This document shows positions 8,624 to 25,611 of a stretch of 25,611 bases of DNA, piece after piece. The notes under the pieces are model-generated. The model was not told where the DNA came from. It saw only the letters and a list, made by a program, of their open reading frames with translations, and made no database searches. This stretch comes from a virus. The stretch's first letter is position 1, and each line of letters opens with the position of its first letter. The stretch is taken from positions 1 through 25,611 of IMG/VR virus record IMGVR_UViG_3300025767_000112. One strand, given 5' to 3'. The translations under genes were made by a program, and so were the position numbers.

Positions 8624-11600
8624 ATGGCTATAGGTCGCATTAGTGGTCCGCTCTTAAAGGCAAACTTACTTCGCCAAGGAGTAAATCTAGCTTTTGAGAA
8701 CGACTTACTATTTTTAGATGTTAATAATAACCGCATAGGCATTAATCTCGGATTAAACGGCGGCGATCCATCTAACCCTATATTACCCCAATACGACTTA
8801 GACGTTGGCGGCACTATTCAAACACAAAACTTAATATCTACAACCAGCGCACAGATTGCTAATGTAAATATTACTGGAAATACAATATCGACAATTTCTG
8901 ACACACTAACATTAGGAACTAATGATAATGTTGTATATCAAAACAAACTGGTTATTGATAGTTTAGATTTAGAAAATAATGTTATTAGTTCAAACGAAAC
9001 TAATGCAAACATTGAATTTGCTCCCAATGGTACTGGCACTGTAGAGATATTTGCAGATACAAATGTAACAGGAAATATTACTGCAACGGGAAATATTACT
9101 GCTGACGGTAATATTACTATTGGTGATGCAGACACTGACAACGTTACATTTAACGCAGAAATTAATTCAAACATCGTTCCAGACGCTACTAACACATATA
9201 ACTTAGGTAGTCCTACAAAACAATGGGCTGACGTCAGAACACAAAACTTTTACGCCGGGACAGTTACTACAGCAGCAATTGTAGTTGACGGTGTAGACAT
9301 TGCACTGCGTCAAGGAAATATATATTACGTTGCTGAAAACGGCAGCGACAGCTATTCGGGTGACCATCCTAATGATCCATACGGTTCATTAAAGTTTGCA
9401 CTAACACAAGCAACTAGCGGTGATACAATTCACATTTATCCAGGAGTATACCAAGAGATATTCCCAATGACTGTTCCTGCAGGTGTAACTGTAAAAGGTC
9501 ACACAATGCGTGGAGTTAACATTACTCCAACTGCCGGAACAAATAGTAATGATGCATTTTTAGTTAATGCAGGTGTAACAATTGAAGACTTGACTATTTC
9601 AGGATTCTACACAGGCTATGCATTTAAGTTTGCTCCTGGATTTGCAGTATCAGGAAATAACCGCTCGCCTTATATTAGAAACATAAGTGTCATTACTCAA
9701 GGAAGCGTTACAAGCGCCGCAGACCCAAGAGGCTTTGCGCAAGGTGATGCTGGTAAAGGAGCGTACATAGACGGGTCCGTAGCGGGCGCTACAAGCTTGG
9801 AAGCTAGTATGCTGTTCCATAGTGCCACATTTATTACACCCGGCGTAGACGCTATTACAATAACTAACGGCGCTAGAGTAGAATGGTTAAACAGCTTTAC
9901 ATACTTTGCTAATCGTGGTATTTACGGTGTAGATGGTGTCACAGGCTTACGAGGAAGCGGACAGACAGCAGTTAGAGTAGATGACTTAACAGGTACTATC
10001 GTAGATGGAAACACGTTTACATACTACGACACAGATGGCGTAACAGTTCTTGCAACAGGTACTATTAACGGTGTAGATGCAGATGGTAAGTTTTATGTAG
10101 ACGGAAATCTAACAGGATTAGAAACTGCTGGCGAACGCGGCGGCAAAATCATAACCAAGTACGGAACACCTACTACAGACACAACTGTTAAAAAGTTCGG
10201 CACAAGTAGTTTAGAACTTAACGGAACTACTGACTACTTAGGCGTTGCATCAAATAACGACTTTGGGTTTGGTACAGACGATTACACTGTTGAAGGTTGG
10301 TTTTATTTTAATAGTGTAGCTGCTATTACAAACTTATTCGATTTTAGAGCAGGTGCAGGATCAGACGTAGCACCAGTAGTTTATATTGATGCGGGCGGCG
10401 AATTACGTTTTTATTCTTACAGTGCAGATAGAATTACAGGATCAACATTAACAACAGCAACTTGGTATCATATTGCAGTTAGTCGCAGTGGCAACGATAC
10501 AAAGTTATTTTTAAACGGTGCATTAGAAGGAACGTGGACTGTAGCAGCAACAGATTACGATGTTGCAAAACCTCTTATAATTGGTGCACGGTGGGATGCT
10601 GCAAATAAACTTGACGGTTATGTAGACGAATTTAGAGTTACAAAAGGGTTAGCACGTTATACTGGTGCATTTGTACAACCTTTATCAGAATTTGCAAGTG
10701 ATAGTAATACTAAGTTACTATTGCATTTTAATAATGCAGTTGACGGTGCAAGTACATTTATAGACGATACTACTAACTCACAAGATTTACGTTTTAGTAA
10801 TGGAGCAACAGCTACATTCTGTACATTAGCAGATCAAACAGAATTTGGTGCAGAAGTACGTGCAATTGCAAGTGCGTGTGTATACGGCAACTACGGTATT
10901 GTAGGAGACGGTCCAGGTGTACTAATGTACTTGATTAGTCAAAACTTAGCATACATTGGTGTAGGCAAAGAAGTTGATAATGACGAAACTGGTGTAATAC
11001 AAGCAAATGAAGTTGTCGAATTAAGCAATGCACAAATAAGATATAGCAGTGTAGATCACAAAGGTGATTTTAGAGTTGGTGATTTATTTTATGTAAATCA
11101 AGAAGACGGTACAGTAGACTTTGGCAGTTCGACGTTTAATATTAATACATCTCAAGGTTTAACAATCACTACAGGCGGCAGCACAACGACCATCACAGGC
11201 GACAGGTTCGATACTGGAAATTTACGCCTAAGTGGAAACACTATATCAAGTTTAAGCGGTGATATTAACTTGGATGCAGATAGCGGCACAGTTAGAATTA
11301 ACTCTACGAGTGCCCTACAGCTACCAAAAGGAAGTACTGCAAGTCGTCCTACTCCAGCAACAGGTATGATTCGTTATAATACCGATACAGCATTGTACGA
11401 AGGTTATGACGGCAACTGGATGGCACTTAACGGTGTTTATGATTTAGATTTAGACACACGTATCACAGCAGAACTTACTCCTGGCGCAAACGATGGTGTA
11501 ATTAGATTCTATATTCAAGACAGCGTAGTTACAACAATTGATGCAGATAAGTTATCTACTCCGAGAATAGAAGTAGACGATATAAGTATCGATGGAAATA

Positions 11601-12708: not shown

Positions 12709-15700
12709 ATGGCAGATTTTAAATTAAATCGTATACGATATAACTGGAAAGGCGATTGGGCCGCAGGAACTAATTACATTAAAGACGATGTAGTTAGATA
12801 TGGCAGCAGCACTTTTGTAATAACTGAAACCCATACTAGTTCTAGTAGCTTTTATAATGATTTTGGATTAGACCCTACTGATTTAACAGTAACCGTTGGA
12901 AGAAATGCAGGCAACACAGCTGATGTATTTTATATAAATGGCGTAGAAACTCCTACTTTAGAACTAAGGCAAGGAAGAACGTATATATTTAATCAAGATT
13001 CTGCTACTAATATTGCGGGCACAGAAAATCCATTACATTTAAGCACAACAGCTGACGGTAGCAATACTGGCGGCGGAATAGCATATCTTGGAAATGTTAA
13101 GTATTACTTAAACAGAGCAGAAGTCAGTAGTGAGGTGTACTCGTCGGTCCAATTTGGTGACGTTGGAACTGTCCGCAGAGAATTAAGAATTACTATAGAT
13201 CAGTACACTCCTGCAACTTTATATTATTATACATCCGAAACAGCTACGCCTAATGCTGGCAATTCCGTTGCTACAACACTAACTTCTAAATTAGAATTAA
13301 TGATGGAAGGTTCATCGTTTAGTTCTGTATGGACTATATCTACATTATATAATGAAGACGATGTTGTAGTTTATGGCGGCACAGTATATAGATGTCGCCG
13401 CTCGCACACAAGCGCGGCTACAACATTATTAGGTTTAGAAAATGACATCCAAGATTGGGTGGTAATATCTAGTTCAGACAGATGGACTAATAATTGGGTA
13501 GCGACTACACGGTACCTAGTTAATGATTTAGTTAAATTTGGTGGCACAATATATCGTTGTACCGTAGCACACACTGCAAACCCATTGTTTTCGACAGATT
13601 ATAGCAATTGGGAAATAGTCATACAAGAAGTTGATTATAAAATTGACTGGGTAACATCTACCGAATATAAAATTAATGATATTGTAAAATATGGCGGATC
13701 GTTATGGCGAGCTACAGTACTTCATACTTCTTCAGCATTTGGAGCAGACGCAGCCAACTGGGAAATATACTTAGATGGATTGGAGTTTGACAGTAATTGG
13801 GATATAACTACAGCCTATCAACAAGGCGACGTTGTTCGTTACGGCGGATATGCTTATCGAGCAGTAAGGTATAATGTAGCTGTTACACCACCTGGAAACA
13901 CCAGTGACTGGAGTGCAATTTATGAAAGATTTACGTTTGCTCAAGACTGGAACTCAGAAAGTGTTTATAATCCAGGGTCTGTAGTAAGATTAAACGGATA
14001 TGTTTACGAAGCTATTGCTGACAATACAGAACAGTTGCCTCCTAACGTATCTTATTGGAAAGTACTTATATCTGGAGAAGCTTGGACAGGACTTTGGACT
14101 ACTGGAAACGAGTATAAATTAGGAGATCTTTCTACTTACGGTTCTCATACATACAGATGTATACTTGCACACGTAGGAGATAATGGAAAAAGGCCTGACA
14201 ATGACTTAGCAGGCACTGGGACATACTGGACCATGCACGTTGAAGGTGACTTAAACAATGTGATGGCAGAGCAAGGCGACTTATTAACATATCAATCAGG
14301 GACTAAAGCACGATTAGGCAAAGGTGTAGAAGACAGTGCGTTAAGAGTAGCTAATAACGGTACAAGTTTAGAATGGGACTTGTTTGGAGATACTAGCAAC
14401 GTATTTTACGTAGCACCTAATGGAGTAAACAACCCTAATTCAGGTACAACTTTAAATCGTCCATTTCTTACTGTTCAATATGCATGTGAGCACATACGTA
14501 CTAATATAGATACGTCGACAAATAATGCTACGGTATTTGTTAAAACTGGTATTTACAAAGAAATTTTACCTATCAGCGTTCCACAAAATACAGCTATTGT
14601 AGGCGACGAACTGCGCAGCACGGTAATTATGCCAGCTACTGGATATGAAGCATCTAATATGTTTTATATGAGAAACGGCACTGGATTAAGAAATTGTACC
14701 TTGCAAGGACTTAATACCACACTAGGTGATGCAAATGATTTTGGAACTAAGCGTCCAATTAGTAATACAGCCTTTGTAAGTCTTGATCCAGGCGCAGGCA
14801 CTTCGGATCAATCTGTATGGATTACTAACAAATCACCGTATGTACAAAATGTATCAACGTTTGGTACTGGATGTACTGGTCTAAAAGTAGACGGAGAATT
14901 GCACGCCGGCGGCAACGATAGTATTGTTGCTAACGACTTTACACAAATTATATCAGATGGAATTGGAGTTTGGGTAACTGGACAAGGTAGATCAGAACTT
15001 GTGTCGGTGTTTACGTATTATTGTCATATTGGTTACTTAGCAGAAGCGGGCGGAAAAATTCGAGGAACTAACGGTAACAATTCTTATGGCACCTACGGGT
15101 CTGTATCTGAAGGAGTTGCGTTAACTGAAACTCCAATAACTGGTAAAATCGATAATTTCGCACAAGAAGCAACTGTAGGATTTATAACCACTGATGGCAA
15201 CAACATACTTGCACTAGAATATGCAAATGCAGGTTTAGGTTACGATGCAAGTACATCTTATACATTTACAGGAACTGGTTTTGGAGCAACAACATCTGCA
15301 GCAAACGTAGTAAACGGTGGAATTTTTGAAATACGATTAACTGCTCCTGATGACAACACAACACCAGGCGGCTCTGGCTATATTCTTATCACAAGCAATG
15401 CACAAGCTGGAACTACGTCTACAATTACATTTAGCCAAGGCGATGAAAATGAAGAAGCTAATTACTTAGGAATGAGAGTAGTGCTAGTCTCAGGAGCAGG
15501 AGCAGGACAATACGGTTATATTACTGCATATAATAGTGCAACAAAGGTTGCAACGCTAGCTAAAGAGTCAGATGGCACTCCTGGCTGGAATCACTGGACC
15601 GATGTAGCAGTTGTTGCACCAGACACAACTACTAGGTATCAAATTGAACCTAGAGTTACATTTAGTTCAGGCGCTGCAATTGCAAGAGTCGGAGTTGCAT

Positions 15701-16707
15701 CTGGTAGATTAACTGGATTTAGAATAATAAATCCAGGATCTGCGTATGGAGTTGCGACGCCTCCAACTGTTACTATCACAGATCCAAATTCTACATCTGC
15801 CGGAACGTGGACTGTAAGAATTGGTAACGGAGTTTTATCTCAACCAACTTTTAGTAATAGAGGAACAGGATTCTTAACAGCAGGTGCAACACTAACTGGA
15901 ATCGGATATCAAGATTCATACCAAACAGGTAAATTTATAACAGCTTCGGGATTAACACTCGAGCCTGGTCCTGGCGCAAATTTACAAATTGCTGGAAACG
16001 CAACTGTATACAGACTTGTATCAGTTAGTGATGTAACCGGAGTTGCTCCTAACATTAGTGCTAAAATTAGAATTACACCAGCTTTAGAAACTTGGAATGC
16101 TCCCGAAGACGATGTTACTATAACAATTAGAGAAAATTACAGCCAAGTTCGACTAACAGGGCATGATTTCTTAGATATTGGTCTTGGTAATATTGGAGAT
16201 ACTAATTATCCAAATAATGTTGGCGCAGTAATATCTCCTGAAAATGAAATTTTTGAAGTAGGCGGCGGACGAGTATTTTACACAAGTACAGACCAAGATG
16301 GTAACTTTAGAGTTGGCGAACTATTTAAAGTCGAACAAGCAACTGGCATTGTTACACTAGATGCAGATTCATTTAGTTTGCAAGGACTTGAAGAACTAAG
16401 ACTCGGCGGAGTTATATTGGGCGGAACAGGCGCTGTTGTTAGAGAATTTAGTACTGATGCAACATTTAGTGCTAACTCAAATAATATTGTTCCGACTCAA
16501 CGTGCAATTGCTACATTCATTCAAAGTAGAATAGGTGGCGGCGGCGCCGATGTAAATGTAAATGAAATTACTATGGGACAAATTACAATATCAGGCAGCA
16601 CTATGACAGCAAGTGTGCCAACGATAAGTTTTGAAACTAAAGCAAATTTCAAAGACGGAACATTAGACGAGATGATAATCGCAACAGCGATGGCATCAAA
16701 GAGATAA
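12709..16707 (+). CDS. Multi-domain fibre with seven CBM-like repeats and beta-helix (1332 aa), paralog B1
   Basis: Large adhesin-like fibre. Residues about 10-514 hold seven repeats of roughly 45-50 aa with the pattern W-x(3-4)-Y-x-x-(D/G)D-(V/I)V-x-YGG-x-x-(Y/W)-R-x-x-x-x-HTS...W, resembling carbohydrate-binding modules of the chitin-binding (CBM5/12) type. The first repeat is split by a ~140-aa cupredoxin-like domain (about 48-190: VFYINGVETPTLELRQGRTY, then PLHLSTTADG and LYYYTSE). A pectin-lyase-like beta-helix starts at about 565 (FYVAPNGVNNPNSG, VFVKTGIYKEILPISVP, VGDELRST, MRNGTGLRNCTL). C-terminal parts include YSQVRLTGHDFLDIG, YTSTDQDGNFRVGELF (about 1190) and NIVPTQRAIATFI (about 1257). 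It is closely related to the 1820-aa protein. Role: surface-glycan binding is probable; enzymatic activity cannot be claimed. Confidence 0.88.
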   Translation: MADFKLNRIRYNWKGDWAAGTNYIKDDVVRYGSSTFVITETHTSSSSFYNDFGLDPTDLTVTVGRNAGNTADVFYINGVETPTLELRQGRTYIFNQDSATNIAGTENPLHLSTTADGSNTGGGIAYLGNVKYYLNRAEVSSEVYSSVQFGDVGTVRRELRITIDQYTPATLYYYTSETATPNAGNSVATTLTSKLELMMEGSSFSSVWTISTLYNEDDVVVYGGTVYRCRRSHTSAATTLLGLENDIQDWVVISSSDRWTNNWVATTRYLVNDLVKFGGTIYRCTVAHTANPLFSTDYSNWEIVIQEVDYKIDWVTSTEYKINDIVKYGGSLWRATVLHTSSAFGADAANWEIYLDGLEFDSNWDITTAYQQGDVVRYGGYAYRAVRYNVAVTPPGNTSDWSAIYERFTFAQDWNSESVYNPGSVVRLNGYVYEAIADNTEQLPPNVSYWKVLISGEAWTGLWTTGNEYKLGDLSTYGSHTYRCILAHVGDNGKRPDNDLAGTGTYWTMHVEGDLNNVMAEQGDLLTYQSGTKARLGKGVEDSALRVANNGTSLEWDLFGDTSNVFYVAPNGVNNPNSGTTLNRPFLTVQYACEHIRTNIDTSTNNATVFVKTGIYKEILPISVPQNTAIVGDELRSTVIMPATGYEASNMFYMRNGTGLRNCTLQGLNTTLGDANDFGTKRPISNTAFVSLDPGAGTSDQSVWITNKSPYVQNVSTFGTGCTGLKVDGELHAGGNDSIVANDFTQIISDGIGVWVTGQGRSELVSVFTYYCHIGYLAEAGGKIRGTNGNNSYGTYGSVSEGVALTETPITGKIDNFAQEATVGFITTDGNNILALEYANAGLGYDASTSYTFTGTGFGATTSAANVVNGGIFEIRLTAPDDNTTPGGSGYILITSNAQAGTTSTITFSQGDENEEANYLGMRVVLVSGAGAGQYGYITAYNSATKVATLAKESDGTPGWNHWTDVAVVAPDTTTRYQIEPRVTFSSGAAIARVGVASGRLTGFRIINPGSAYGVATPPTVTITDPNSTSAGTWTVRIGNGVLSQPTFSNRGTGFLTAGATLTGIGYQDSYQTGKFITASGLTLEPGPGANLQIAGNATVYRLVSVSDVTGVAPNISAKIRITPALETWNAPEDDVTITIRENYSQVRLTGHDFLDIGLGNIGDTNYPNNVGAVISPENEIFEVGGGRVFYTSTDQDGNFRVGELFKVEQATGIVTLDADSFSLQGLEELRLGGVILGGTGAVVREFSTDATFSANSNNIVPTQRAIATFIQSRIGGGGADVNVNEITMGQITISGSTMTASVPTISFETKANFKDGTLDEMIIATAMASKR
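16261..16319 (+). repeat. 59-nt near-identical block shared with 21764-21822
   Basis: This block, encoding the GGGRVFYTSTDQDGNFRVG segment, differs from 21764-21822 at only two of 59 bases, both synonymous. The surrounding coding sequence is much more diverged, so the block points to recent exchange between the two fibre genes or to very strong constraint. Confidence 0.7.
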
Positions 16708-16747: not shown

Positions 16748-19700
16748 ATGGCAGAATTTAAGTTAGGAAGAATTAAGTTTGTTTGGAAAAACGAATGGGA
16801 TTCTAGTACAACATACTACGTTGATGATGTTGTACGTTATGGTGGTAAAACATATATCTGTGTTGTAGGGCATGCATCTAATGTAAACTTTTACACTGAT
16901 TTAACAGCAACTAAATGGAATTTAGTTAGCGACGGTCAAGAGTGGAAAAATGTTTGGTTAGGATCAACATATTATAAAGTAGGCGACATTGTAAAATGGG
17001 GCAGCTTAATATATATTTGTATTACTGGACATACTTCTCAAACTTACCTCGAAGACGATCAATCTAAATGGGATACATTTGCTGTTGCGTCTTTTGATTG
17101 GAAAACAGAATGGGCCATTAACACTTATTACAAATTAGGCGATGTTGTAAAATATGGCGGAACTGTATACAGATGTAACACTAGTCATTCTTCAGCAGCA
17201 ACTATTACACTTGGTCTCGAAGCAGATCAATCCAAATGGGATATTGTAATTCAGAGTTTTGAATACAAAGCTACTTGGTCAAATGCTTCAGTAAGATATA
17301 AGAAAAACGATGTTGTCAAATATGGCGGCGGACTTTGGATTGCTGTACTTCCGCATACTTCAGATGCCGGAACTACTTTTGAAACAGACGAAGATTCTGG
17401 CTATTGGGCGCAATTTGTTGAAGGGTTAGAATTTGAAGACACATGGTCAAGTGCTACAGTTTACCAACCAGGTGATATTGTAGCTTATGGTGGTAACCAG
17501 TATATTGCAACAGCTAACCATACAAACAGTGTTCCTACAGCGTTATCGAGTTGGGATTTGTTCTCGACAGGGTTTAAATATATCGGCGATTATACAGATG
17601 CTACGGACTATAAAGTAGGGGATATTGTAAGACTAAACGGCTATACATACCTATCTACGGGCGATCATACTAGTGCAGCAGGAAATAAACCACCGTCAGT
17701 TACTTACTGGCAGAGACTAAACTATGGGTATAAGTGGCAAGGTACGTGGGCTGATGCTACATCATATGAACTCGGCGATACTGTTAAGTATGGCGATAAC
17801 AGTTATGTGTGTGTACTAACACACCTTTCAGATGAAATAACATTACAAAACAGACCAGATCAAGATTTAGATGGCAGCGAATGGAATTTGTTAGCAGCAG
17901 GATCAAGTGTTGCAACTCTTACAACCGACGGTGATTTAGTTACATATGCAGGTGCTGGTCCAGCAAGATTGCCAATTGGTAATGAAGGCGACGTTCTTGT
18001 AATTAAAGACAATAACGTAACATGGGATCGTTGGGGAGATATTAATAATGTTTATTATGTTTCTCCGGAAGGTACAGATGCTGCAAGTTACGGTTACACA
18101 ACAGATAGAGCATTTAAAACAGTTCGTTATGCTACTGAACAAGTTCAAAAAGGTATTGTAAGAAATAACGCTGCAAGACTAATTGAATTAAACAGAGGCT
18201 ATATTGCAGAAGAAATTGTTGAAACAATTTATACAGCAAATCCTGCATTAACTAACAAAGAAACATGTAGACGCGATATGGGTCAAGTAATTGATGCAAT
18301 TGCTAGTGATTTGCGTAAAGGCGGCAATGTAAGTATAAGAGAAGCAACATTAACTTATTTCTCTGATGCTACTACTTTACTACCTAGCATTGCAGGAGAA
18401 ATTGCTGATACAATCACAGGTATTAATCACGGACTAACTGTAATTAAATATATTTTAGACAACGGCGCAGGCGCAATTAGTTACACTACTGTAGGAGCAA
18501 TAACAGCACAAACAATTAGTGGCATTGTTGCCGAAACAGCAGCATCCGCTGAAGCTACATCACTAACAGGAATTATTACTACCACACTTACGGCAGTTGA
18601 TACTTCCACGCTTCCTGCAATACACCGAACACAAAATACAATTTTTGTAAAAACTGGGCAATATGCAGAAGTGTTGCCTATAGTTGTTCCAAAAGATACT
18701 GCTGTTGTTGGAGACGAACTACGTTCAACTAGAATTGCACCGAGCCCGGTTGCTCTAGTAGCAGCAGCTGATACTCCTTATAGTTTAGATGGATTAAGTA
18801 GATTACAAGCAATCATATCTGATATTGTAACAGATCCTAGCACTGTTGTAAAAACAGGCGGTAATTCTCTTAATCCAGTTGACATGGCACCATTAATAGG
18901 GACCGCAGCCGCTGGAACCTTTGCATCAGAACTAGTACAACAGATATCTGACTATGTAGATTGGGGAGTAAACGGAGCTACAGGCGACTCGACAGTTCCG
19001 GTAACATACGGCACAAACACTCCAAATACAACAACAGATTACACATATGCTATTCAATCAATTGAAGCAAATAGAGAATTCTTAAAAGCAGAAGTTAATG
19101 CTTACATAGCAGCAACATATCCATCATATGTATACGATGCTGCTAAATGTGCAAGAGATATTGATAGATATATTGATGCTATTAAGTATGATATGATTTA
19201 TACAGGCAATTATAAATCACTACTATATGCACGTTATTATGTAAATGCTGTTAACGGTTCGTTACAAGAAGATATGTTCTACCTACGCAACGGAACTGGT
19301 TTGAGAAACTGTACATTAACTGGGTTAACAGGAACGTTAGGCGCTGCTAATGCATTTGGAACTAAGCGTCCAAGCGCCGGATCATTTGTAAGTCTTGATC
19401 CAGGATACGGCACAGCTGATACATTTGCGTGGATTACTAACAAATCACCGTATGTACAAAACGTGTCAACTTTTGGTACAGCGTGTATTGGCATGAAAGT
19501 AGACGGCGATCTACACGATGGCGGCAATGATAGTATTGTTGCAAACGACTTTACACAAATTATTAGTGACGGTATCGGAGCTTGGGTTACTAACTTAGGC
19601 AGAGCAGAACTTGTATCTGTATTCTCATACTACGGTCATATTGGTTACTTAGCAGAAGCAGGTGGTAAGATTCGTGCTACTAACGGCAACAGCTCTTACG

Positions 19701-22210
19701 GTACATTTGGCACAGTTGCAGAAGGTGTTGATATTACAGAAACTGAAATTACAGGAACTGTAAACAACAGAGTTTATGAAGCAACAATTGATTTAGTACA
19801 AACAAATGCTACTAAACTACTTGGGCTTGAATACAGTAATGCTGGCACTAACTATACAACAGAAAATAATGTATATATATTTACTTCGGGTGTAGGAGCA
19901 AATGTTGTAGGAAACGAAATTCGCGATAAATCAGTATTTGAAGTTAGAATGTTAACTGCTGGTGCTGATTACGGATTTGCAGAATCATATGCACAAACTG
20001 GTAATGCTACGAGTATTACTTTATCAGCAACAGACGGCGCAGGATCTCCTGACTATGTAGGAATGACAGTATATATTAAAGCTGGTAAAGGCGTAGGCCA
20101 ATATGGTAAAATTGCTACATACGATTCAGGTACTAAAATTGCAACAGTGCAAGATCGTTACGGCAACGCAGGCTGGAATAATATTGTACTAGGAACACCA
20201 GCACAGTCTAGTTTAGACTTAACATCACTATACCAAGTTGAACCGACAATAGAGTTTACTTCACCTACGTTTACTGAAACTGCTACTACACTGCCAACAG
20301 CTAATGTTTATAAAAAGCCCGCGGCATATGGTGATACAATTTTAGCTGTTGGCTCGACTAATTCTTCTATTTCAAAGAGTGTTGATGGCGGACAAACATG
20401 GAGTGCAAGCACAACAGCAACATCAGGAAGAGGTGCAATTGCAGCAGGCAATATTGGCGGAACTACTTATTGGGTAACTATTCCTTACGGACCAGGCGGC
20501 GCAAGTTCTGCTGGTGAATATAGCACTGACGCTGGAACTACATGGAATTCTATGACATTACCGTCAGCAAACAACTGGATTAGTGTTGCTTACGGTGATG
20601 GTGTATTTATGGCGATTGCACAAGGCGGCGATGTAGCAATTTCTTCAAATGGTAACACATGGACAGGTGCAACATCAATGGCTCCTTCACTATCAGGCGC
20701 TAATCTTCTTGCAGTAGCATATGGTGCAGGAAAATGGGTTGTAGCAAGTGCTAACGCACCAACTGATCCGATGCAGTATTCAGCTGATAATGGCACTACA
20801 TGGACAGTGTGTACAACACCTACAGGTGCATATAATGATATTACATTTGGTAATAATCTTTGGGTTGCTGTTGGCACATCGGGCGCACTTGCACATAGTA
20901 CCGACGGTATTACATTTACAGATAATGTTAACGCCGCTGGCACAAATACAAACTTCAGTGTAAGTTATGGACAAGGGTTGTTTGTGCTTTCGAGTTATAG
21001 TGGCAGTGTATATGAAGCTTACACAAGTGAAAATGGTACAACATGGACACAACGTGCATTAACAGAAAATTCCGTAGACACTAATTTTGTGTTTATAGCG
21101 CACTCTACACAGGGACCAACTTGGGTAGGAGTACCAGAAGGCAACCTAGTAACAGGCGCATGCTATTTTCCAAATATTACAACAGCTAGAGGAAGATCAA
21201 GACCGACTAGTGCTGGAGAGATTGCAAAAATAGTAATACTTGAGCCAGGTTCGGGATATACAAGTACGCCTACAATGACTATTGTCGATCCGGCAAATAC
21301 TGTCGAAGCAACTGTTACTATACGAACAGGCGACGGCGCACTAGCTCAACCAACATTTGTTGCTCGAGGCACAGGATTTAGTACCTCTACTGCAACTGTT
21401 GCAGGCGATGGTTATAAAGATCAGTACCAAGATGGCAAATTTATTAATGTTGCTGCTTTGTCTGAAGTTCCAGTTGCAGGATCAAATGTTGAATTTAATC
21501 TTGACGGAACAATTTATAAACTAGTTACTGTAACAGAATTGTTAGGATCAGGACCGTATACTGCAAGATTGCAAATAAGTCCTGCAATGTCAATTGTCAA
21601 TGCGCCTGAGCATAATGATCCGTTAGAAATGCGTATTCGTTATTCGCAAGTACGTTTAACAGGACACGATTTCTTAGACATTGGCACTGGTAACTTTGCA
21701 GATACTAACTATCCAGGAACGCCATCAAATGTTCCAAATCAAGAAAGCGAAGCAAAGGAAAACGGCGGCGGACGAGTATTCTATACAAGTACAGACCAAG
21801 ATGGTAACTTTAGAGTTGGCGACTTGTTTAGTGTAGAACAAGCAACAGGTAGTTCAACCCTAAACGCTGATGCTTTCAACTTAGCAGGTCTACAAGAATT
21901 GCAATTGGGCTCAGTAGCATTAGGAAGTTCGAACACTTCAATTAGCGAATTTAGCACAGACGGAACGTTTGCTGCTAATAGCGATAATATTGTACCAACA
22001 CAAAAAGCAATTAAAACTTACTTAGAAGGACAAATCGGCGGCGGCGGCAGCTCATTGAATGTTAACAAATTAACAGCAGGCACTGTTGAAATTTCAAGTA
22101 ATGTGATAACCTCTACAGGAAATATTCCTATAGACATAAATACTAAAGTAAAGTTTAAGGGTGGTGTTGACGGTACACCGTTAGCGTTAAACTTTTTCTT
22201 ATTAAGATAA
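16748..22210 (+). CDS. Giant multi-domain fibre with CBM-like repeats, helical inserts and Asp-box propeller (1820 aa), paralog B2
   Basis: Largest gene in the window. Seven CBM5/12-like repeats span about 10-385 (for example TTYYVDDVVRYGGKTY and INTYYKLGDVVKYGGTVYRC). A pectin-lyase-like helix starts at about 433 (YYVSPEGTDAASYG) and is interrupted twice by helical inserts: about 471-627 with CRRDMGQVIDAIASDLRKGGN, and about 666-841 with CARDIDRYIDAIKYDMIYTGN. A 280-aa insert at about 1188-1468 holds six Asp-box motifs at residues 1211 (SVDGGQTW), 1259 (STDAGTTW), 1299 (SSNGNTW), 1345 (SADNGTTW), 1384 (STDGITF) and 1427 (SENGTTW), spaced 39-48 residues, as in a six-bladed propeller. The C-terminus repeats YSQVRLTGHDFLDIG, YTSTDQDGNFRVGDLF and NIVPTQKAIKTYL from the 1332-aa paralog. 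Likely a receptor-binding fibre; sialidase-type catalysis is not supported because only structural Asp-boxes are visible. Confidence 0.9.
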   Translation: MAEFKLGRIKFVWKNEWDSSTTYYVDDVVRYGGKTYICVVGHASNVNFYTDLTATKWNLVSDGQEWKNVWLGSTYYKVGDIVKWGSLIYICITGHTSQTYLEDDQSKWDTFAVASFDWKTEWAINTYYKLGDVVKYGGTVYRCNTSHSSAATITLGLEADQSKWDIVIQSFEYKATWSNASVRYKKNDVVKYGGGLWIAVLPHTSDAGTTFETDEDSGYWAQFVEGLEFEDTWSSATVYQPGDIVAYGGNQYIATANHTNSVPTALSSWDLFSTGFKYIGDYTDATDYKVGDIVRLNGYTYLSTGDHTSAAGNKPPSVTYWQRLNYGYKWQGTWADATSYELGDTVKYGDNSYVCVLTHLSDEITLQNRPDQDLDGSEWNLLAAGSSVATLTTDGDLVTYAGAGPARLPIGNEGDVLVIKDNNVTWDRWGDINNVYYVSPEGTDAASYGYTTDRAFKTVRYATEQVQKGIVRNNAARLIELNRGYIAEEIVETIYTANPALTNKETCRRDMGQVIDAIASDLRKGGNVSIREATLTYFSDATTLLPSIAGEIADTITGINHGLTVIKYILDNGAGAISYTTVGAITAQTISGIVAETAASAEATSLTGIITTTLTAVDTSTLPAIHRTQNTIFVKTGQYAEVLPIVVPKDTAVVGDELRSTRIAPSPVALVAAADTPYSLDGLSRLQAIISDIVTDPSTVVKTGGNSLNPVDMAPLIGTAAAGTFASELVQQISDYVDWGVNGATGDSTVPVTYGTNTPNTTTDYTYAIQSIEANREFLKAEVNAYIAATYPSYVYDAAKCARDIDRYIDAIKYDMIYTGNYKSLLYARYYVNAVNGSLQEDMFYLRNGTGLRNCTLTGLTGTLGAANAFGTKRPSAGSFVSLDPGYGTADTFAWITNKSPYVQNVSTFGTACIGMKVDGDLHDGGNDSIVANDFTQIISDGIGAWVTNLGRAELVSVFSYYGHIGYLAEAGGKIRATNGNSSYGTFGTVAEGVDITETEITGTVNNRVYEATIDLVQTNATKLLGLEYSNAGTNYTTENNVYIFTSGVGANVVGNEIRDKSVFEVRMLTAGADYGFAESYAQTGNATSITLSATDGAGSPDYVGMTVYIKAGKGVGQYGKIATYDSGTKIATVQDRYGNAGWNNIVLGTPAQSSLDLTSLYQVEPTIEFTSPTFTETATTLPTANVYKKPAAYGDTILAVGSTNSSISKSVDGGQTWSASTTATSGRGAIAAGNIGGTTYWVTIPYGPGGASSAGEYSTDAGTTWNSMTLPSANNWISVAYGDGVFMAIAQGGDVAISSNGNTWTGATSMAPSLSGANLLAVAYGAGKWVVASANAPTDPMQYSADNGTTWTVCTTPTGAYNDITFGNNLWVAVGTSGALAHSTDGITFTDNVNAAGTNTNFSVSYGQGLFVLSSYSGSVYEAYTSENGTTWTQRALTENSVDTNFVFIAHSTQGPTWVGVPEGNLVTGACYFPNITTARGRSRPTSAGEIAKIVILEPGSGYTSTPTMTIVDPANTVEATVTIRTGDGALAQPTFVARGTGFSTSTATVAGDGYKDQYQDGKFINVAALSEVPVAGSNVEFNLDGTIYKLVTVTELLGSGPYTARLQISPAMSIVNAPEHNDPLEMRIRYSQVRLTGHDFLDIGTGNFADTNYPGTPSNVPNQESEAKENGGGRVFYTSTDQDGNFRVGDLFSVEQATGSSTLNADAFNLAGLQELQLGSVALGSSNTSISEFSTDGTFAANSDNIVPTQKAIKTYLEGQIGGGGSSLNVNKLTAGTVEISSNVITSTGNIPIDINTKVKFKGGVDGTPLALNFFLLR
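21764..21822 (+). repeat. 59-nt near-identical block shared with 16261-16319
   Basis: Second copy of the block encoding GGGRVFYTSTDQDGNFRVG, with two synonymous differences from the copy in the 1332-aa gene. A further 32 bases at 14818-14849 and 19430-19461, encoding WITNKSPYVQ, are identical between the same two genes. Confidence 0.7.
22135..22142 (+). promoter_or_regulatory. Possible intragenic late promoter-like box CATAAATA
   Basis: CATAAATAC lies inside the last 80 bases of the 1820-aa gene, about 85 bases before the start of the small gene at 22226. It shares the ATAAATAC core of the intergenic boxes and could drive the small protein and the Cys-rich pair independently. One such match could also arise by chance in AT-rich coding DNA. 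Confidence 0.3.
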
Positions 22211-22568: not shown

Positions 22569-24149
22569 ATGGGACGTTTTGTACCAGTAAATTTAGACAT
22601 TCAAGTAGCAGAGAAAACGCCATCGGCGCAACCTGGCGCGAAGGTCTACTACGACGGAAAACAGTGTTGGCAGTATAAAGCTGTATATAAAGAACCAGGC
22701 GCTTATACATGGACAGCTCCGGCAGGAATTACTTGCGCGAGAAGTGTGCTTATTGGCGGCGGAGGCAAAGCTGTACATCAATCCAATACTTGTTGTTCGT
22801 TTGGCGGCGCAGGCGGCGCATATTCTGAAAAATGTATGGCAGTTGGGTCTAGTACATCATTTTGTATTATTGTAGGCAAACAAGAACAAGATTCAACGTT
22901 GTCGTGCAATGGCACTCCTGTACACACAGCAGGCGGAGCAACATGCTGTACTCCAGGTACAGCAACAGGTGGCGATTGGAACAGTTGCGGAGGTAACGCA
23001 GGTTATAGTTGTAACCATTGCGGCGGCAGCTACAGTCATCATTGTGGTAGTTGTACTTATATTACTAATGCTGCTTGCTGTGGTTATTGTATAATTTATG
23101 CATATAAAAATGCAAACGAAGGTGCTTCAAACTGCTGTAACATGTTATCAGTAGGCGGAGCAAGTGCTGGATCACCAAAGCATGTGAAAGGCGGCAACGC
23201 ACAAAACGCATGTGGATACAGAAACCAAACAGCAGCAGGCGGAGCAGGCATTGGAGATTTTTGTCGAGCGCATACTCATTGCGGAGAAGGCGCTTGGTGG
23301 TATAACTGCTGTCACTGTGTTTGTATAGCATATTGTACTGCTTATTCTAATCGTACTTGTTATCCTCCATCACTTGGCGGTGGCGGTGGCTCAAAAGGTG
23401 TACGAATGACCGGTACTCGTGGCTGGGAAGGCCAATGTGATGGCGGCATTTATCGCACAGGCGACGGCGGTAGCGGAGGCCCCGAAGGACATAATCAGGT
23501 CGGCTTCCAATTAGAATGGGGATATCATCAAATTTGTGCGTATCCATACGGCGCCGGATATCAAATTCCAGAATTTGAAATGAAAGATCCAAGTCCACCT
23601 CCACAACAGGTTGATTGGTGGGATATCTCAGACATATGTGGCAGCGGCGCTCCTGGCGCTCCAGGAAGAATATGGCCAGGGACATGTGAGTGCATGGGCG
23701 CTGGCAATGGCTCATGGCCTGAAAATTCAGGCGAAGGCGCGGGAACAGGCGGCACAGGCGGCTATGAAGGATGGCTAGGACAAGCTGGAATGAACTACGG
23801 CTCTCCGCAAAACCATGATGTTAACTGGTGTCTTGTTTGTCACCTAGGAGAGAAAAACTGGGAATCACAAGCATATAAACTCCAAAAACAACTTGTTCCG
23901 GCGCATATAACATATGCAGGAACACTAGGTGGCTCAGGCGGAACAAACTGGTGTCACTACAATCAAAAAGCAGGCGCAGGTGGCGGCGCAGGTCAAAGTT
24001 GGTGTCATATAGTGTGTGTATGCTACGGCGGCTCATACGATCTCTGTAACGGATCAGGACCAGCACTTGCATTTTCACCATGTCTACTCGACTCTCTTGT
24101 AAGTAATGCAGGCGAAGGTATGGCAATAATTTATTATAAGGAGACATAA
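22569..24149 (+). CDS. Glycine- and cysteine-rich adhesin-like protein 1
   Basis: 526 aa with about 41 Cys, close to 8 percent, plus abundant Gly, His, Trp and Tyr. N-terminal module: GAYTWTAPAGITCARSVLIG, then GGGGKA and GGAGGAYSEKC, the pattern of glycine-rich domains found in phage and bacterial adhesins (PGxYTxTxPxGVTxVRV, GGGG, GGAYxEK), which normally lack Cys. The rest has CNHCGGSYSHHCGSC (residue 148 on), CCGYC, CCHCVC, CECMG, WCLVC and WCHIVCVC, interleaved with GGGGGSKG, GTGGTGGYEG and a proline-rich PSPPPQQVDWWDISDICGSG. There is no signal peptide or membrane segment. The start has an AGGAG ribosome site. The CxxC/CC/His clusters suggest metal binding or disulfide cross-linking; which is unknown. 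It follows the fibre cluster, suggesting a fibre-tip adhesin. Closely related to the next gene. Confidence 0.85.
   Translation: MGRFVPVNLDIQVAEKTPSAQPGAKVYYDGKQCWQYKAVYKEPGAYTWTAPAGITCARSVLIGGGGKAVHQSNTCCSFGGAGGAYSEKCMAVGSSTSFCIIVGKQEQDSTLSCNGTPVHTAGGATCCTPGTATGGDWNSCGGNAGYSCNHCGGSYSHHCGSCTYITNAACCGYCIIYAYKNANEGASNCCNMLSVGGASAGSPKHVKGGNAQNACGYRNQTAAGGAGIGDFCRAHTHCGEGAWWYNCCHCVCIAYCTAYSNRTCYPPSLGGGGGSKGVRMTGTRGWEGQCDGGIYRTGDGGSGGPEGHNQVGFQLEWGYHQICAYPYGAGYQIPEFEMKDPSPPPQQVDWWDISDICGSGAPGAPGRIWPGTCECMGAGNGSWPENSGEGAGTGGTGGYEGWLGQAGMNYGSPQNHDVNWCLVCHLGEKNWESQAYKLQKQLVPAHITYAGTLGGSGGTNWCHYNQKAGAGGGAGQSWCHIVCVCYGGSYDLCNGSGPALAFSPCLLDSLVSNAGEGMAIIYYKET
23010..23053 (+). repeat. 44-nt near-identical block shared with 24616-24659
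   Basis: Encodes the CNHCGGSYSHHCGSC core of the first Cys-rich protein. It differs from 24616-24659 at three of 44 bases, marking the two genes as tandem duplicates. Confidence 0.75.
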
Positions 24150-24150
24150 G

Positions 24151-25611
24151 ATGGGACGTTTTGCAACAACTGGATCTGTACCGGCAAACATAACAAGTTC
24201 AGTGGTAACATCAGAATGTTATCAAGTAGACACGCACAAGTATGCATACGATGCGAATTCAGATTTTCAAAATAGAGTAATGCTAGATGCGCCAGGCAAC
24301 TATACGTTTACAATACCCGACGGAGTAACTTGTGTAAGAACAATTGCTGTCGGAGGCGGCGGCAAAGCAAAGTGTACACAAACATGTTGTGGCTATGCAG
24401 GTGCTGGCGGCGCATATTCTGAAAAATGGGATACTGTTTCTGGCGGCGCAACTATTAGTGTTGTAGTCGGTAGACAAGAACAAGATACTACTATATCATA
24501 CACAAATGCAGCAACACAGGCAATTACACTAACAGCAGGCGGCGCAGCTGGATGCAACCAAGGCGCTGCTTCAGGCGGTGATTGGAATAGTGCAGGCGGC
24601 GCAGCTGGAAAAAATTGTAACTATTGCGGAGGCAGCTACAGTCATTATTGTGGTAGTTGCATTTGTTGTTACGATACAACTTGCTGCGGATATTGCGTAG
24701 TATGGAGCGGAATTAGTGCAAGACGCCAGGATCCGTCGCACGACAGTAACGGTTGCTGTCAGGGCAGATATGCAGGCGGTGGCTCCGCAGGATCATTTAT
24801 TTACTGTTGCGGAGGCCAAGGACAAGGATCCTACAATAATACAAATAGTACATCAGAAAGTGGACCAAGTGCAGGTGGTGGCGGCGGTATCGGCTATATT
24901 CAACGAGAACCTGCAATTTCGTGGAGCTGTAACTGTATTTGTATGAAATCAGGTTATAACGGCCAACTGTATGGCAACAAGCTTAGAGATATATGTCGCT
25001 TGCCAGCTGCTGGCGGCGGCGGCGGAACTGCTTATCAGTGCTGCTCAAACTGCACTGCGCATCATATTCAAGGATGCTGTATGCACGGACGTTGGAGAAA
25101 TGGCCCAGGCGGATGGGGCGGCGCACACAACAACGAAGGCCGCGGCAGAGAATTCTACTGGGGCTCTAGTGAAGCACCAAACAGTCACGGTGACAGTTAT
25201 TGGACAGAGATTGAACAAGGTCCAGCACCAAAGATATATCCGTGGCATGACATACACGAAATGTGCGGAAGCGGTTCATCAGGAAGAAGTATGATGTTCC
25301 GTTGTCGTCCAAACGAAGGTTGGTGGGTAGGTCATACCGTTGATGGTAATCCTGATAATGCAGGCGAAGGCGCAGGAACAGGCGGAGTAGTATACAATTG
25401 CTGCAATCTACATAGTGTTTACGGTAACTGTTGTTTAGCTGGCGCAGATGCATGCGGCACAGTAAACTGGAATTTAGTATGTTGCTTAGGCACATCGAAT
25501 AAAGTATGTTGTGCAGACAGAATGATGGAGACAATACATCCGTATGTACTTGCATGCGCAGGAACACTAGGCGGCGCAGGCGGTACTGGCATATGTCACA
25601 TGACACAGAAA
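24151..25611 (+). CDS. Glycine- and cysteine-rich adhesin-like protein 2 (3' truncated)
   Basis: Open from the ATG at 24151 to the window edge (487 codons, no stop), with an AAGGAG ribosome site one base after the upstream stop region. About 41 Cys are visible. It parallels the preceding protein: MGRF start, GNYTFTIPDGVTCVRTIAVG, GGGGKAKC, GAGGAYSEKW, VGRQEQDTTIS, GGDWNSAGG, CNYCGGSYSHYCGSC (residue 156 on), CCGYC, WHDIHEMCGSG, NAGEGAGTGG and AGTLGGAGGTG. It differs in its N-terminal 45 residues and in the middle, and has more CC pairs (CCYDTTCCGYC, CCNLHSVYGNCC). The ending of the first paralog (AGTLGGSGGT followed by about 60 residues) suggests that only about 60 residues are missing here. 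Function inferred only from the Gly-rich adhesin module and the position beside fibres. Confidence 0.85.
   Translation, partial: MGRFATTGSVPANITSSVVTSECYQVDTHKYAYDANSDFQNRVMLDAPGNYTFTIPDGVTCVRTIAVGGGGKAKCTQTCCGYAGAGGAYSEKWDTVSGGATISVVVGRQEQDTTISYTNAATQAITLTAGGAAGCNQGAASGGDWNSAGGAAGKNCNYCGGSYSHYCGSCICCYDTTCCGYCVVWSGISARRQDPSHDSNGCCQGRYAGGGSAGSFIYCCGGQGQGSYNNTNSTSESGPSAGGGGGIGYIQREPAISWSCNCICMKSGYNGQLYGNKLRDICRLPAAGGGGGTAYQCCSNCTAHHIQGCCMHGRWRNGPGGWGGAHNNEGRGREFYWGSSEAPNSHGDSYWTEIEQGPAPKIYPWHDIHEMCGSGSSGRSMMFRCRPNEGWWVGHTVDGNPDNAGEGAGTGGVVYNCCNLHSVYGNCCLAGADACGTVNWNLVCCLGTSNKVCCADRMMETIHPYVLACAGTLGGAGGTGICHMTQK
24616..24659 (+). repeat. 44-nt near-identical block shared with 23010-23053
   Basis: Encodes the CNYCGGSYSHYCGSC core of the second Cys-rich protein; three of 44 bases differ from the first copy. 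Two of the differences change His to Tyr, one is silent. Confidence 0.75.

Follow-up and report, generated by a model that had tools for sequence, protein, structure and literature searches.

Tandem cysteine-rich, glycine-rich proteins encoded behind a phage tail fibre as candidate fibre-tip adhesins

Introduction

Tail-fibre tips help decide the host range of a phage. In marine and freshwater T4-related phages, the proteins at this position are largely unannotated. Among described systems, the T-even and S16 adhesin gp38 carries glycine-rich motifs at the tip of the long tail fibre. Cyanophage Pam3 gp24 (PDB 7ypx, 7yfw), a tail-fibre protein with a receptor-binding domain, is reported to be similar to S16 gp38. 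It comprises about 280 aa, with an N-terminal helical trimer domain and a tip domain containing 39% glycine, and is neighboured by its chaperone, gp25 (PMC9608196). The text of that paper makes no mention of cysteine or disulfide. A different kind of precedent is provided by Agrobacterium phage Milano. Its tail is crosslinked by many disulfides, which reach from the sheath and tube to the baseplate, spike and fibre; a few cysteines are listed for each protein (PMC10811340).

The window considered here is a stretch of 25,611 nucleotides from an IMG/VR virus record (IMGVR_UViG_3300025767_000112). Its last two genes, ORF A and ORF B, encode proteins that share glycine-rich motifs with gp38 and are saturated with cysteine; a glycine-rich adhesin of this kind is not described in the Milano passages considered. 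Their fold and role appear, from structural modelling, to be already known in kind, whereas the cysteine-saturated version differs. No description of this version, of its fixed paralogue sets or of its spread over jumbo phages and cyanophages was found in the open-access papers searched, which form a limited body. Open-access papers combining the terms "cysteine-rich" and "cyanophage" included none on such adhesins, as judged by titles and abstract openings.

Genomic setting of the pair

ORFs A and B sit downstream of a long fibre bearing carbohydrate-binding (CBM) repeats (Table 1). Between that fibre and the pair lies a small protein, and a counterpart of equal size occupies the equivalent position in a related IMG/VR contig (L003), in S-CAM1 and in AG-345-P14. 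Farther 5', the window encodes a fragment of a T4-type head protease, the major capsid protein and baseplate wedge proteins.

Table 1. Features of the fibre block in the window
Feature	Position	Strand	Evidence or remarks
Second CBM_5_12 fibre protein, same fibre block, seven repeats	12709..16707	+	Pfam and PHROG matches
Long tail-fibre protein, seven CBM_5_12 repeats	16748..22210	+	PF02839 1.8e-41; PHROG 9851 tail fiber 1.7e-186
Small fibre-associated protein, 107 aa	22226..22549	+	PHROG 11338 tail fiber protein 8.5e-13
ORF A, first of tandem pair	22569..24149	+	Cys-rich, Gly-rich putative fibre-tip protein, 526 aa
Ribosome-binding-like sequence of B (aaggag)	24134..24152	+	Sits within 3' end of A
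ORF B, second of pair	24151..25611	+	At least 487 aa; incomplete, runs off contig end

The first-pass annotation, made from the sequence alone, had proposed a survey of marine T4-like contigs. This setting can be refined. The capsid protein is nearest to those of the jumbo myoviruses Phosso, Vibrio 2.275.O, PA5oct and GAP32 (64-68%), not to those of typical marine T4-like cyanophages, and the largest contigs that bear the pair measure 280 and 356 kb. The capsid match and these contig sizes make it probable that the window virus is T4-related and of jumbo type, with a fibre module like that of cyanophages. The photosystem gene psbA was not found in 14 records, all of which may be fragments, a result compatible with cyanobacterial hosts.

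Composition and organization of ORFs A and B

ORF A contains 41 cysteines (7.8%), 18.6% glycine, 16 histidines and 16 tryptophans. The 487 readable residues of ORF B likewise contain 41 cysteines (8.4%), with 17.9% glycine; its relatives reach about 540-560 aa in full length. The two proteins are paralogues with 39-40% identity. The cysteine-saturated, glycine-rich tandem pair recognized in the first-pass annotation is confirmed. The remaining 14 complete proteins of the window hold only 27 cysteines in 7165 aa (0.38%). The cysteine level of the pair is therefore about 20 times that of its neighbours, and at the background rate the binomial probability of at least 41 cysteines in 526 aa is about 1.5e-39.

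An arrangement of these cysteines as CxxC, CC and CxC had also been proposed. All three motifs are present. Compared with shuffles that preserve the glycine frame, CC doublets are enriched 1.64-fold across the A/B proteins and C-x7-C spacings 1.69-fold, whereas CxC and CxxC remain at the level expected from composition (1.07-fold each).

Only one base separates the stop codon of A from the start of B. This gap, together with the aaggag sequence in the end of A, is consistent with translational coupling of the two genes. In other loci the spacing is 1-4 nt, if the conserved MGR is taken as the start.

Relatives in IMG/VR

Scanning IMG/VR with pair alignments of A and B recovered clear relatives on 27 contigs. 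The tandem pair is present on every one of these contigs that is long enough to show it, which establishes a fixed pairing and gene order at the sequence level. Complete, intact copies have 41-53 cysteines in about 520-565 aa. An IMG/VR scan with B as a single protein gave no match, whereas the pair alignment succeeded. Likewise, cultured phages yielded no direct tblastn match to A or B, for B even at E 10; low-complexity filtering probably contributed. In one locus (L011 7599-9223), the second cysteine-rich copy reads as two ORFs and is either broken or affected by a sequencing error.

With B running into the contig end of a fragmentary window, one might suspect that the cysteine count is an artefact of annotation, reading frame or composition. 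Frame, pairing and cysteine positions are, however, repeated in the 27 contigs, with dN/dS of 0.04-0.23 where sequences diverge enough, and cultured genomes encode comparable proteins. These comparative data refute the suspicion, to which we assign next to no probability. The tandem pairs in relatives, together with dN/dS well below 1, indicate that A and B are real genes.

Selection on the cysteines

Residue retention was computed on 17 A and 16 B proteins after removal of redundancy. Glycine is best retained in pairwise comparisons (0.81) and cysteine comes second (0.75), above tryptophan (0.60); histidine is poorly retained (0.38). At least 95% cysteine is seen in 20 columns of the A alignment and 13 of the B alignment, and columns with at least 80% cysteine account for 63% of the cysteines in A and 50% in B. 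Between the A protein of the window and its nearest relative (L028), 33 of 34 cysteines are kept, while residues other than cysteine and glycine are 78% identical.

From this second rank, the cysteines of the pair are, as judged from these alignments, under selection. The survey of homologues that the first-pass annotation had called for thus found conserved cysteines, not the variable and unconserved ones that would have told against its reading. The dN/dS values, taken from pairs with enough divergence, are similar to those of the fibre; they establish purifying selection and do not suggest hypervariable diversification of A and B. Many of the cysteines that do vary fall between glycine motifs.

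Predicted fold and family

AlphaFold2 models point to a TNF-like sandwich with glycine-rich extensions, of the Pam3 gp24 type. For A the model has low confidence (pLDDT 49.9), with the Pam3 fibre 7yfw as its best VIA-align match (Z 10.9). The model of B, built from a 34-sequence alignment, is better (pLDDT 71.7, pTM 0.76) and also finds the Pam3 fibre first (7ypx; Z 7.3, rmsd 2.6 over 119 residues), with unrelated rows at 3.7 or less. The next structural matches are the tail-tip protein of mycobacteriophage Bxb1 and the TG domains of ALK/LTK. Foldseek alone, run with both models against the PDB, returned the same names, none at E below 0.001. Against BFVD, model B had 18 matches with E no higher than 0.001, mostly phage proteins with glycine-rich domains.

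Family searches agree in part. ORF B matches Pfam Gly_rich_2 (PF21722) with 25.6 bits against a cut-off of 24.3, and ORF A alone does not match. Across the A/B group, Gly_rich_2 is matched by 8 of 34 members (E 0.01). The glycine-rich adhesin-type module seen by the first-pass annotation is supported. Neither protein matches the Pfam gp38 family at E 1, and gp38 is not among the structural matches listed; a likeness to it may still exist.

The resemblance to Pam3 gp24 is incomplete. The A/B proteins are longer (520-565 aa), occur in tandem and combine 8-10% cysteine with about 18% glycine; in a full-length relative of B, the most glycine-dense stretch of 220 residues reaches 24%. Neither model shows a helix near the N-terminus, where confidence is low over the first 14 residues of A and the first 28 of B.

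Cysteine-rich and cysteine-poor counterparts in cultured phages

Cultured carriers could be reached only by tracing the neighbouring fibre. Tandem sets of two or three cysteine-rich proteins (8-12% Cys, 14-18% Gly) are encoded in P-SSM2, P-SSM5, S-SSM7, Sf-FS3, S-CAM1 and S-CAM3. Examples are PSSM2_304 and 306 and SSSM7_114-116, all annotated as "hypothetical protein". The gene order in these cyanophages runs from the related fibre through a small protein, which is not in every genome, to the two or three cysteine- and glycine-rich proteins, and continues through additional genes as far as one for a Nol-like carbamoyltransferase. The pair had been considered strikingly unusual. Its cysteine saturation is real, but it is not isolated, as cultured cyanophages have it in the same slot. 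Long-cultured models such as P-SSM2 thereby offer concrete candidate receptor-binding proteins.

The cyanophage proteins resemble A and B in cysteine level, glycine-richness, tandem copies and position after the fibre, and many carry Gly_rich_2 (8 of 14 members). They are, however, shorter (260-356 aa) and show almost no direct sequence match to A and B. With a profile of the cyanophage group, a single A/B member is detected (E 0.009); the A/B profile, in turn, detects two cyanophage members (E 5e-5 and 2.5e-4).

In IMG/VR, 249 of 497 pattern-matched stretches encode relatives of the S-SSM7 type. Within a set of 80 retained loci (L043-L122) and five cultured genomes, 83 of 85 loci carry three copies, with 8.0-12.2% cysteine. 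Each of the three slots forms an orthologous lineage of its own; the nearest neighbour comes from the same slot in 114 of 115 cases. A trimeric fibre tip with one of each paralogue would account for the number three.

Other phages share the Gly_rich_2 domain with B at far lower cysteine content. These include Erwinia phage pEa_SNUABM_47, Sinorhizobium phage Phosso, pelagiphage Mosig and Syn9 (gp38/gp39). The proteins of the two jumbo phages and of Mosig have 0-4 cysteines and 26-43% glycine in the densest stretch, unlike A and B, and Syn9 gp38/gp39 have 2-7 cysteines. The Mosig protein is encoded behind a fibre, in the position equivalent to that of the pair, and pEa_SNUABM_47 and Phosso belong to the cultured phages with the capsid proteins nearest to that of the window. 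A second P-SSM2 protein with Gly_rich_2 falls in the same range of 0-4 cysteines and also has more glycine. Because these relatives have few cysteines and more glycine, cysteine enrichment is, in the genomes compared, a trait of particular lineages that goes with lower glycine content.

Two further records were considered. Marine virus AG-345-P14 (L019 5117-5965) encodes, in the position that follows its fibre and small protein, a product of 282 aa with 26 cysteines and only 11% glycine. This protein has no relative among cultured phages and may be unrelated and independently cysteine-rich. An "adhesin" mutation in S-PM2d (PMC9910659) was set aside as support, since the whole S-PM2 record has no Gly_rich_2 match.

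Proposed role of the pair

With moderate confidence, we infer that A and B are fibre-tip adhesins. Modelled separately, the two paralogues share their best structural match, and the order of fibre followed by cysteine-rich proteins is repeated in S-CAM1, S-CAM3, P-SSM2 and S-SSM7. The lower glycine content (18% against 39% in the Pam3 tip domain) and the missing N-terminal helical trimer domain in the models count against this assignment.

The more specific reading that we favour has about an even chance of being correct. It holds that A and B represent the known glycine-rich adhesin of fibre tips in a cysteine-rich form, which probably becomes locked by disulfides after lysis. The pair would form the distal receptor-binding adhesins of the long tail fibre, with a TNF-like beta sandwich and glycine-rich segments as in Pam3 gp24. 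In the A/B branch, glycine is less abundant and conserved cysteine fills a large share of the chain. Neighbouring, probably coupled genes would supply both proteins together, and these would probably act as a fixed set, either as a hetero-oligomer or as two tips. The chains would fold with reduced cysteines in the host cytoplasm; once lysis exposes them to oxygenated water, a dense disulfide network would fix the loops of the tip. Such a scheme would bear on the question, raised by these sequences, of how proteins with about 40 cysteines assemble in a reducing cytoplasm yet act outside the cell. If it is true, tips of this type would be unusually robust binding scaffolds.

A stricter version, which we hold to be possible but clearly less probable, concerns a tip matured by redox change. 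The jumbo lineage would use a fixed set of two, and many cyanophages a set of three, non-interchangeable cysteine-rich paralogues. These would assemble in reduced form as a hetero-oligomer and become covalently locked once set free; the product would be a rigid adhesin in which disulfides replace polyglycine packing. This proposal derives from the distinct orthologous slots and the near-constant three copies of the S-SSM7-type loci.

The gene that follows B bears on an alternative role. A conserved third gene of about 150-250 aa with a common N-terminus lies 3' of B (18 loci examined), in a position recalling that of the gp25 chaperone beside Pam3 gp24. In L003, L005, L029 and others (e.g., L003 9235-9741), this N-terminus reads MxWAKIVNDEIMQ...HPD...VGW and the C-terminus is variable. 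No significant Pfam match was obtained in three members scanned, and the product is possibly a fibre chaperone resembling gp25. With a conserved further gene next to the pair, several accessory factors are plausible, and A and B themselves could be fibre-cassette proteins other than adhesins, namely a cysteine-rich cap or sheath of the fibre or assembly factors absent from the virion. The PHROG nearest to B, PHROG 863, is indeed labelled "tail fiber assembly", but the match spans only about 70 residues. Moreover, the nearest solved fold, Pam3 gp24, is a virion fibre whose chaperone is a different protein (PMC9608196), and two or three large paralogues would be unusual for chaperones. We regard a non-adhesin role as unlikely, and place the pair provisionally on the virion, in contact with a receptor.

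Chemistry of the cysteines

The tips may be chemically locked, with disulfide bonds as the likeliest means. The enriched CC doublets, the conservation of the cysteines and the presumed extracellular site favour such bonds, for which the crosslinked tail of phage Milano is a precedent (PMC10811340). Pairs of cysteines are lost together in 37 cases against 16 expected in A/B, yet a tyrosine control behaves alike (26 against about 11), so that no signal specific to disulfide pairing emerges. Among S-SSM7-type proteins, co-loss was 0 against 0.9 expected. A search of ten phage records for DsbA found none. A search for an Evr1/Alr oxidase gave no match either, but as its control also matched nowhere, this result carries no weight.

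Cysteine counts are even in only 11 of 33 A/B proteins and odd in 22, which, like the co-loss result, speaks against strict pairing. The common odd counts, as well as the numerous variable cysteines between glycine motifs, would suit a tip with reactive thiols, in which exposed free cysteines form mixed disulfides with cysteine-bearing proteins of the host surface and so adhere covalently. The large share of cysteines in conserved columns fits a structural role better, and free thiols tend to oxidise in oxygenated water. Covalent adhesion of this kind is accordingly considered quite improbable.

Metal binding fares somewhat better, although we still judge it unlikely. Here, clusters of cysteine with some histidine and aspartate would bind zinc, iron or copper and would either hold the loops or engage a metal receptor of the host. 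The high cysteine content (8-12%) with CC, CxC and CCxxC clusters is compatible with this idea. In the S-SSM7-type class, a conserved column just before a conserved CGQGG flips repeatedly between cysteine and histidine (histidine in 17 of 115), and change from cysteine to serine is nearly absent. In A/B, on the other hand, the CxxC pairs typical of zinc sites are not enriched, histidine is scarce (1.7%) and poorly retained, and cysteines are lost mainly to tyrosine, alanine, threonine and asparagine, with no preference for other metal ligands. Evidence of iron uptake or metal insertion was not found, and the suggestion that such tails deliver iron to exploit host receptors gained no positive evidence. 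A disulfide network formed after lysis stays the preferred reading, at roughly an even chance.

Flanking genes and a bacterial match

A scan of bacterial genomes for A and B gave one match; the contig concerned was assigned by binning to an uncultured actinobacterium (L123 3-2164 and 2771-6777). Its cysteine-rich pair adjoins apparent host genes for cytochrome oxidase and the bc1 complex, an arrangement that is either a chimeric assembly or a hint of the host. Downstream genes also recur in part. L003 carries a carbamoyltransferase gene farther 3' of the cassette and, just 3' of it on the minus strand (9770-11018), two 2OG-Fe(II) oxygenase genes. Pelagiphage Mosig and Syn9 likewise have oxygenase genes of this kind annotated close to fibres.
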